The notes below the pieces were generated by a model. It was not told the origin of the DNA. It searched no databases and saw only the letters and a list, made by a program, of their open reading frames with translations. Source: an alpha proteobacterium IMCC14465 (GTDB taxonomy: Bacteria > Pseudomonadota > Alphaproteobacteria > RS24). From it: a stretch of 48,003 nucleotides of DNA. The stretch is from contig ALYF01000012.1 in assembly GCA_000293845.2 (NCBI GenBank), forward strand, positions 1-48,003, in the 5' to 3' direction. Both the position numbers and the translations under genes were made by a program. Positions 19,514 to 22,858 of this stretch are shown here, one piece after another (position 1 is the first letter of the stretch; each line of letters opens with the position of its first letter).

Positions 19514-20716
19514 TCACTCCCCCATCAAATATCTTTGCCAATTATTAAGCATATCTGCTCGCTCTGCAAAGTAATCTGTTCTGTTATATGCGGCCTCCAG
19601 CTTATCTTTTTCATGTGACAACTGCATTTCAGTCACCTCTTGGCGGTAACTGTTCTCAGTCGCCCATGTCTTCAACGACGCTCTCCAGCCATGAGCTGTA
19701 ACTTCATAGCCGGGAATTTTCTTAAACTGCATCGTGATTACATTTGGCGAGATATGTCTCAGCCTACTTCTATCGTTATCAAATACATACTTATGATTAC
19801 TTCTTAGTGGCGCAATGCGCTCGACTACTTCACTGGTCAGTGGTGTTCTATAAAGCCTGTCAGTCTTGCCGACAGTAAACTTCCAAACCTTATTCTCTAA
19901 ATCAACATCATCCCATTGCATTGCGGCGACATCCCCTGCCCTAACTGCAGTCATCATTACGACCAGACAGGCGATGTTAACGTCCCTATCCATCTCTCTG
20001 GAGCTGATGAAGTCGGCAAAGTATTCTGGGCATCTTTCAGGTTCTATAAATTTGTGATGTTTTGTTTTTAAGTTTCTTGGCTTCACAAGAATATAATCAT
20101 GGTTAACGTCGGCAGGATTGAAAAAATCTATATTTAAAACATACCTGCAATAATCAAATATGCCTTTTACTCTGGCTAAGTTTCTGCTGGCTGTCTCATG
20201 TCGTGCAACCCAGAACTGCTCACCATCCACTTTTTTAGTTAATGCTTCTACGATGTTTTCTTGAGTAATAGTGTCGACAGGCTTGTGTTGAAAATATGGA
20301 TAGAAGATATTTTTAACCTCATTGAGGTTTTGCTTTAAATGATTTCCATCACGCCACTGTTTAGCGTCGACCATGTGTTGATGCCATTTCTGATGTGCCT
20401 CTTCGAATGTGACTGCCCCTTTAGTTAGTTTAAAATCAGTAATGCCTAAAAAGAGCTTTTGCAGTACTTCAGCGTCTTTCGTTTTGTGGAGAAAGTCTTT
20501 TAGGAAATTAACCGAGTTACCTTTTTTAATCTCTATTTTAACTAACAGGTTAAGGTCTCTGGCATCGCTTAGTGATAGGTCGGGATAACTCCCAAGCATC
20601 AAATATGTCGTTTTAATTCTATGCCACCAACTTTTAGCACCACTAGTCGAAACCCTTAAGTAAAGACTATCCCTGTCGGAATAATAACCAGTTTTCTTAA
20701 AAGACTTTACCTTCAA
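19514..20716 (-). CDS. Tyrosine recombinase (P4-type integrase), unusual start
   Basis: About 400 residues. The N-terminal arm-binding domain (LYLRVSTSGAKSWWHR, LGSYPDLSLSDAR) and a C-terminal catalytic domain with the full set Arg259, His342-x-x-Arg345, His368 and Tyr377 mark an island or prophage integrase. No ATG exists between the in-frame stop near 20768 and the conserved region: only TTG (20716), ATA or CTG codons are available, with a poor ribosome site. The family normally begins a few residues further upstream, near ATA-CTG-ATA-GAT, so the original start may have been lost. Two tRNA-end-like repeats lie just upstream. It is convergent with the dmpR-like gene, 64 bp apart. Confidence 0.85.
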   Translation of the reverse strand: MKVKSFKKTGYYSDRDSLYLRVSTSGAKSWWHRIKTTYLMLGSYPDLSLSDARDLNLLVKIEIKKGNSVNFLKDFLHKTKDAEVLQKLFLGITDFKLTKGAVTFEEAHQKWHQHMVDAKQWRDGNHLKQNLNEVKNIFYPYFQHKPVDTITQENIVEALTKKVDGEQFWVARHETASRNLARVKGIFDYCRYVLNIDFFNPADVNHDYILVKPRNLKTKHHKFIEPERCPEYFADFISSREMDRDVNIACLVVMMTAVRAGDVAAMQWDDVDLENKVWKFTVGKTDRLYRTPLTSEVVERIAPLRSNHKYVFDNDRSRLRHISPNVITMQFKKIPGYEVTAHGWRASLKTWATENSYRQEVTEMQLSHEKDKLEAAYNRTDYFAERADMLNNWQRYLMGE

Positions 20717-21136: not shown

Positions 21137-22375
21137 TTACATAACACCTGTGGTTTGAAGTATGTCGGGGATTTGTTTCTTTACCTTAAAAAAGCCAGCC
21201 GTCGCGTAACGCCAAATTGCGTCATCCCAATCTCTGCGCCATTCAACGAACTCTATTCCGGCTTCATTCAGAGCGGGCGTGGCTTCAACTATCCAGTCTC
21301 TGAGCGGGCCGGTTGGGATAAATGGCGTGACGATTTGGGTCGCGCCTGCACACGAAGCCCACCGAGCTAAATCAGATGGTACCCCTGCCCGCAATTCGGT
21401 GATGTCCAGATTAAGTCGTGATGCGGTATCGCTCAACGCGCCCAGCTCAAATTTTTCAACAATTGGAGCAACAGTTAGCGGCGAACGCAGATGACTTGCC
21501 GCGAGTGTCGCACATCCGACAAGGTTCAAAGATGACAGGTCGAAGTCCTCGGGGCGACAATCCTCTTCAGTTATGAGCAAGACTGTTGGGCGGTTTAAAA
21601 CAGGGGCTTTTAGTGTACGCACTGGTGATACGTCTGGCAAACCCTCTGGTTCTTCGTTCTCGAGACCTTCAACAACTTCTGAAAGGTCTGATGGACACGG
21701 GTCAAAGCGGCTATTGGTAAACTTCGCAATATTCCACGCCTGAGCATGATAGGGCTTGCCCCGCGTATGGAGGCCAGCAACCCAGCGCCATCCCAGAGTG
21801 TTTGAAGCGGGATCACCATCAAGGAGATGTCTAAAAAAGAAGTCTGCACCAAGTCGCCATGGCAATTCGAGTGTGAATATCCATATAGAGGCAAACCACA
21901 TGCGCGCATGGTTGTGAAGGTAGCCCGTCTCGACGAGTTCTTCTGCCCAGCTGTCAAAATAGTCCAGCCCGGTTTGACCTGCCTCAGCCGCCTCAACACA
22001 CCGGCGCAGTCTACGATCGCGGCTTAAAGCCTCCAGGTCTTGGGTCAAGCCGTCTTTGTAAAGATCCCAAATGACTGGGCGACGCTCTAGCCAACCTTTA
22101 AAATAACTACGCCAAACAACCTCTTGGATGAACTTTTCCGCGTCTTCTAAGCCGTGCGCCTGTATCGCTGAAGTCACCAAGTCCTGTTCAAGCACAAGGC
22201 GCCGTCGCACATAGGGTGAGAGCATGGATACATCACGGTGTTGACCAGCGCCTCGATCAAAATTACGGCCATTGGTGTAACGTTTGCCCATTTGCGGTGT
22301 AAAAGCTTTTAGTGCTGCTTCGCCGGCTGTCCGCGTGGGCTCAAAATGTTGAGTGTTTAAATTATCAAGTGGCAT
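21137..22375 (-). CDS. Photolyase/cryptochrome-like flavoprotein with reversed domain order
   Basis: 412 residues. Residues about 1-235 match the helical FAD-binding domain of photolyases: LSPYVRRRLV near 52-61, VVWRSYFKGWLERRP, YLHNHARMWFASIWIF near 152-167, NTLGWRWVAG near 192-201 and WNIAKFTNSRF. Normal photolyases carry the alpha/beta antenna domain first, but here it is absent from the N-terminus, and residues about 260-410 form an alpha/beta region (PTVLLITEEDC, QIVTPFIPTGPLRDWIV) like an antenna domain placed last. The start follows AAGGAAG. DNA repair or light sensing are both possible. The gene seems richer in G+C than its neighbours, which may mean transfer. Confidence 0.75.
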   Translation of the reverse strand: MPLDNLNTQHFEPTRTAGEAALKAFTPQMGKRYTNGRNFDRGAGQHRDVSMLSPYVRRRLVLEQDLVTSAIQAHGLEDAEKFIQEVVWRSYFKGWLERRPVIWDLYKDGLTQDLEALSRDRRLRRCVEAAEAGQTGLDYFDSWAEELVETGYLHNHARMWFASIWIFTLELPWRLGADFFFRHLLDGDPASNTLGWRWVAGLHTRGKPYHAQAWNIAKFTNSRFDPCPSDLSEVVEGLENEEPEGLPDVSPVRTLKAPVLNRPTVLLITEEDCRPEDFDLSSLNLVGCATLAASHLRSPLTVAPIVEKFELGALSDTASRLNLDITELRAGVPSDLARWASCAGATQIVTPFIPTGPLRDWIVEATPALNEAGIEFVEWRRDWDDAIWRYATAGFFKVKKQIPDILQTTGVM

Positions 22376-22462: not shown

Positions 22463-22858
22463 TTAGCTGTCTTCTTTATTTTCAAATGGTTCACAATTCA
22501 ATGCAATTAATAAGAGAAGCCCTGCGAATATACCGAGATTTTTCACAAAATTTTGTAGCTCATGTCCTCTATCAACGCCTTCATAAACATTCCAAAAATC
22601 ATGCAGATTAACATTAATTACCAAAACCATAGATGCAAGAATGATGGAGCAGATTGCCACTTGTTTGTTTATCAATAAACAAATACTGGTGCCGATTTGA
22701 ATGATGCCAGCTAGCGCAAGTAACAAGGGAATGAATATCATATTATGTGTTTCCATGAGGGCTACAGATCTATCCCAAGCAACAAATTTCATGAAACCAG
22801 GAAAGAGAAAATACAATGCCAGTAATGTTCTGCCGGCGTGAATTAAGTTGGTTTGCAT
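22463..22858 (-). CDS. DoxX family membrane protein
   Basis: 131 residues with about four membrane helices. TLLALYFLFPGFMKFVAWD near the N-terminus is the conserved DoxX opening (helix with a G-x-x-K motif). DoxX-like proteins are linked to quinone or thiol redox and stress responses, but a specific role cannot be assigned. It stands 87 bp upstream of the photolyase-like gene on the same strand, so the two may be co-transcribed. Confidence 0.72.
   Translation of the reverse strand: MQTNLIHAGRTLLALYFLFPGFMKFVAWDRSVALMETHNMIFIPLLLALAGIIQIGTSICLLINKQVAICSIILASMVLVINVNLHDFWNVYEGVDRGHELQNFVKNLGIFAGLLLLIALNCEPFENKEDS

Follow-up and report, generated by a model that had tools for sequence, protein, structure and literature searches.

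The protein described here is encoded on the minus strand of the window, i.e., the whole stretch of 48,003 nucleotides analysed, from the alpha proteobacterium IMCC14465 (contig ALYF01000012.1). It has the two halves of a photolyase in reversed order, with the FAD-binding domain first and an antenna-type alpha/beta domain last. We regard it as a NewPHL-type photolyase of inverted topology that probably repairs cyclobutane pyrimidine dimers (CPDs) in single-stranded DNA beside a class I enzyme, a reading to which we assign a probability of about 80%. The inverted order has already been described in bacteria, where NewPHL and Phr4/Phr5/Phr6 are in print (PMC9426592), and the window protein is a further example of it rather than a new kind. 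The suggestion from the sequence-only reading of a permuted family with its own function therefore holds for the coherence of the family but not for its novelty.

Gene context and domain order

The strand of the gene had been left unspecified; its open reading frame lies on the minus strand (Table 1). The frame measures 417 aa compared with 412 aa from the ATG, opening just five codons before the start, and AGGA is located directly 5' of the ATG, which together indicate that the protein truly begins with the catalytic domain. An antenna domain hidden in another frame upstream, which had been raised as a concern, was ruled out by the short open frame and by the next gene up, coding for a DoxX-like membrane protein. 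This neighbour adjoins the photolyase in close relatives only, and we do not count it as part of the photolyase system. The tyrosine integrase gene on the other side possibly marks a mobile-element border, and no tRNA genes were found in the window. Among relatives of the fused gene, a flavin amine-oxidase-like gene (PF01593) was observed directly downstream on the same strand at loci L004, L005, L006, L020, L024, L026, L034, L041, L043 and L046, and directly upstream, also on the same strand, at L136. The IMCC14465 genome (1.92 Mb in 16 contigs, 99.75% complete) carries, in addition, a class I photolyase with conventional domain order (474 aa, L002). The FAD-first gene is more than a chance arrangement, since relatives share 46–87% full-length identity with the window protein and dN/dS is about 0.11–0.16 between the window gene and its two nearest relatives.

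Table 1. Positions of the FAD-first photolyase gene, its parts and its neighbours in the window
Feature	Position	Strand	Basis or remark
FAD-first photolyase gene	21137..22375	minus	ATG at 22375, stop ending 21137; 412 aa plus stop
Catalytic FAD-binding domain, residues ~5–240	21656..22363	minus	PF03441 match and model alignment
C-terminal alpha/beta (antenna-type) domain, residues 255–412	21140..21613	minus	separate model and profile link
TPFIPTGPLRDW motif, residues 350–361	21293..21328	minus	sequence; aligned to class I N-domain
D186 to W198	21782..21820	minus	flavin site D186, D188, N192; proximal Trp W196; CPD Trp W198
DoxX-like membrane protein gene	22463..22858	minus	nearest same-strand upstream neighbour; PF07681, E 7e-07
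Tyrosine integrase gene	19514–20716	minus	directly downstream of photolyase; PF00589

The FAD-binding signatures noticed earlier within the first 235 residues correspond to Pfam FAD_binding_7 (PF03441), which covers residues 82–220 with an E-value of 3e-23. An AlphaFold2 model of the whole protein, built from 13 sequences, reached a mean pLDDT of 91.7 and a pTM of 0.91; its residues ~5–240 align to residues ~199–462 of photolyases, their C-terminal catalytic domain (Z 12–15), and the best E-value of the whole-model Foldseek search was 2.5e-5.

Residues 255–412, modelled alone with 52 sequences, gave a pLDDT of 95.6, the alpha/beta domain spanning ~263–410 with its first strand beginning at residue 263. 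Ranks 1–31 of the Foldseek search with this part were all photolyases or cryptochromes (E 2.7e-4 to 1.3e-3). Comparison with photolyase N-terminal domains by VIA-align yielded Z of 8–10.4, with 142–150 of the 158 residues aligned in most rows; the best match was 1iqr (Z 10.4, 142 residues aligned), and residues 3–164 of 1owl gave a Z of 9.6. An unrelated fold was rejected, universal stress proteins reaching a Z of at most 8.9 over 109–130 residues versus 142–150 for most photolyases. The Pfam DNA_photolyase model did not detect the C-terminal domain, and a Pfam TGL match of this part (E 0.06–0.24, below the cut-off) was taken as chance. By profile comparison, the domain matches the alpha/beta proteins of split relatives (E 1e-5, or 2e-9 in reverse), and these in turn match the canonical photolyase N-domain (E 6e-10); the direct match of the two domains is weak (0.002) and in register, and six unrelated control clusters gave 0.04 or worse. 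The TPFIPTGPLRDW motif (TP-x-x-PTGPLRDW), previously noted as part of an antenna-like region, falls, in the alignment, on the post-beta 'Y-x-x-x-x-x-x-RD' segment of a class I N-domain, before its conserved RD. The PF03441 match, the whole-model alignment and the C-terminal fold thus confirm the reversed domain order.

Residues of the active site and proposed function

For the residue comparison, 98 fused proteins, 17 two-gene proteins and 17 class I enzymes were aligned with the photolyase of A. nidulans, one row each. The fused rows comprise the window protein and 97 relatives, a relative being kept if its ORF aligned over 340 query residues or more. ORF picking dropped about a dozen fetched loci (e.g., L008, L014 and L039) in favour of longer overlapping frames; L126 and L131, which are Fe-S FAD-first proteins with over-extended starts, belong to neither the fused nor the two-gene set; four of 21 class I candidates were left out, as the ORF used lacked the N-terminal motif; and L089 and L130 represent the same place.

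The window protein keeps the flavin-site residues Y33, S50, L52, S53, R89, N155, D186, D188 and N192, as well as the lesion-site residues E85, W88, M159 and W198, which we take to be those that touch the dimer in class I enzymes. The previously proposed look at the active site thus showed the CPD-site residues to be kept. E85, W88, M159, N192, W173 and W196 are present in all 98 fused rows and W198 in 97; presumably, the Trp at the latter position is replaced in DASH enzymes. The tryptophan chain consists of W196 and W173, with A116 in the distal column, and forms a dyad. This column holds Trp in 17 of 17 class I rows, and Trp is absent from its six commonest entries among the fused rows (together 75 of 98). 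The column of class I Arg350 is occupied by His in 95 of the 98 fused and all 17 two-gene rows, at position 156 of the window protein. The Fe-S ligand set is lacking: Tyr139 occupies the ligand 1 column, and the remaining ligand columns are gaps. Of the 98 fused rows, 70 have Cys in the ligand 1 column; with one exception, these rows lack the other three ligands, and the Cys may be a relic of a lost cluster. The full set of Fe-S cysteines occurs in one fused row of 98, belonging to the FAD-first photolyase on plasmid p380k of Deinococcus sp. AJ005 (L133, 2920–4290).

Two other functions are difficult to reconcile with these residues. A cryptochrome-type light sensor, or an enzyme of photolyase descent with another job, is highly improbable: the repair-site residues, needless for a sensor, are invariant in 97–98 of 98 fused rows, and the PF01593 gene adjoining some fused genes, which could link to a non-repair role, is missing from the window locus. 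Barely credible is a (6-4) photolyase, given that the Fe-S ligands are missing from the window protein and that M159 takes the place of the His that marks (6-4) enzymes. What speaks for it is the same domain order in Phr4/Phr5 of marine Synechococcus, for which, as for Phr6, (6-4) activity was proposed from the Fe-S cysteines (PMC9426592).

NewPHL, in contrast, matches the window protein in every published hallmark compared, and no difference was found, the match being one of hallmarks rather than of direct sequence alignment. Both carry the FAD domain at the N-terminus and the second domain at the C-terminus, and both occur in Alphaproteobacteria. NewPHLs of Dinoroseobacter shibae and Methylobacterium mesophilicum are reported to repair cyclobutane dimers in single-stranded DNA (PMC13274461, PMC9426592, PMC8948257, PMC12083526), the D. 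shibae enzyme has a Trp dyad instead of a triad (PMC8948257), as in W196/W173, and an Asn near the flavin is conserved (PMC12083526), corresponding to N192, an Asn shared by all 98 fused rows. Published NewPHLs carry the accessions A8LJA9 (D. shibae), M7YZC8, Q2N8F4 and B6IPR5 (PMC13274461). Fe-S cysteines are absent from the window protein, as PMC9426592 states for Phr7, which represents the NewPHL type in Prochlorococcus. The structure-search matches listed include no solved NewPHL structure.

The most likely function of the window protein is that of an accessory light-driven CPD photolyase. From its catalytic anatomy we infer that FAD would be bound in the helical domain, and the C-terminal domain would pack back on it and seal the flavin pocket, as reportedly described for NewPHL by Emmerich et al. 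2020 (NAR 48:12845); this domain may or may not hold an antenna pigment. Blue light would excite FADH-, from which an electron would pass to a CPD held against W88 and W198, and the dimer would be split by this electron transfer. On the model of the two NewPHLs that have been characterised, lesions in single-stranded DNA are probably preferred, alongside the cell's own class I photolyase.

Since W198 is kept, repair of double-stranded DNA is conceivable as well, and all class I CPD-contact residues tested are retained. A general CPD photolyase acting on double-stranded DNA would, however, duplicate the class I enzyme. Among 289 Alphaproteobacteria genomes, a canonical-order photolyase, defined by proxy as a full-length DASH-profile match at E 1e-50 or better, was found in every one of the 24 genomes that encode the fused form and in 153 of the 265 others (Fisher p 8e-6, kinship uncorrected and confounded by phylogeny). 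A second identical role is thus less likely, and we consider this alternative unlikely. The DASH profile exceeded its cut-off in none of the 289 Alphaproteobacteria genomes and in one of 14 control genomes.

With class I CPD photolyases (1owl, 1dnp, 1iqr and the cell's own enzyme) the window protein shares both folds and the CPD and FAD residues, but it differs in the reversed order, the missing distal Trp and the His at the R350 position. Cryptochrome DASH has a similar catalytic fold, and DASH and NewPHL alike are reported to repair CPDs in single strands, whereas the domain order differs and the window protein scores 67.7 bits against a TIGR02765 cut-off of 317. The SPL group of Xu et al. 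2021, reportedly FAD-first with Fe-S cysteines, and Phr4/Phr5/Phr6 resemble the window protein in having the FAD domain first and the alpha/beta domain second, but their alpha/beta sequences are far apart from its own. According to PMC9426592, this order is seen in marine Synechococcus/Cyanobium, where Phr4/Phr5 are encoded by two genes and Phr6 is fused, and Fe-S cysteines are reported for Phr4/6, four in number where the window protein has Y139 and gaps. In the same paper, the phr4/phr5 pair raised the UV-C survival of E. coli, with survival in light not significantly above that in the dark, so that the light dependence of this form is unproved in that source.

Two-gene relatives and the origin of the fused form

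The Phr4/Phr5 arrangement of PMC9426592 is the same as that of a two-gene form in the window's own bacterial family (L089–L101). Among the 28 genomes of this family, 14 encode the two-gene form, with a FAD-first protein of about 265 aa, seven encode the fused form and none has both (hypergeometric p 0.003, kinship uncorrected). The short FAD gene is followed immediately by a ~143-aa alpha/beta gene, whose product begins with the photolyase-like motif LIWLHED. We examined 14 such gene pairs, representing 13 distinct places, two of them outside the family. The paired genes overlap by 1–8 bases in 12 rows (11 places); one of the other two pairs overlaps by 92 bases, likely owing to an over-extended start, and the second is separated by 14 bases. 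Because the FAD gene precedes the alpha/beta gene in these relatives, the layout can be accounted for by a fusion or fission of genes just as readily as by a true circular permutation. The proximal Trp is replaced by Phe (LSFQWVAS) in 13 of 17 two-gene FAD proteins, all at the 13 loci L089–L101 of the window's own family, and is Trp in the other four; nature thereby offers an equivalent of the classic Trp-to-Phe mutant.

In the tree, an analysis recommended by the sequence-only reading, fused and two-gene FAD-first proteins fall together across a 100/100 branch from class I, with long branches between the fused group and class I of which the tree program itself warns. In a careful tree omitting L134 and ten near-copies, the fused Deinococcus protein groups with a two-gene protein (100/98), and the fused rows form a single clade in 0% of 200 bootstrap trees. 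The alpha/beta domain of the Deinococcus protein is likewise nearest to two-gene alpha/beta domains (E 5e-22). A single fused clade was not rejected by the AU test on the careful tree (p 0.207), nor on the quick tree (p 0.856), for which the search had missed a better tree. Fusion may thus have happened once or twice, and both readings stand.

A broader scenario, which we find quite unlikely, would make the FAD-first photolyases one clade in which the Fe-S cluster was lost and flavin reduction through the Trp relay decayed, a dedicated partner taking over the reduction, e.g., the amine-oxidase-like flavoprotein encoded beside the fused gene at 11 loci. The lone Cys kept at ligand 1 by 70 of the 98 fused proteins would reflect the loss, and the dyad of the fused form and the proximal Phe of the 13 two-gene proteins would reflect the decay of light-driven reduction.

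Distribution of FAD-first photolyases

Relatives are encoded by at least 566 stretches in species genomes. The best 80 of these show 46–77% identity and share the FAD-first layout; most are from Rhodobacterales, while other Alphaproteobacteria account for some and Gamma- and Betaproteobacteria for a few. The fused form is present in 24 of 289 Alphaproteobacteria genomes (E 1e-90 or better). Relatives that match over 80% or more of the query are present on nine plasmid records, including those of Peteryoungia, Ruegeria, Niveispirillum, Novosphingobium, Asticcacaulis and Deinococcus; if annotated at all, they are labelled 'FAD-binding domain-containing protein'. Carriage of the gene by phages or viruses was rejected: in 10 phage records the match is confined to the FAD part and in none does it extend over 80% of the query, and no relative was confirmed among viral contigs. 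On a Persicobacter plasmid (L135, 2863–5494), a gene for a 391-aa FAD-first protein is followed directly by one for a photolyase-like protein of the usual order.

FAD-first photolyases are therefore widespread beyond the few named cases, chiefly in Rhodobacterales as judged from the best 80 stretches, and on plasmids as well. The window's own bacterial family offers a compact setting for testing the fusion, the loss of the Fe-S cluster and the need for the Trp chain.
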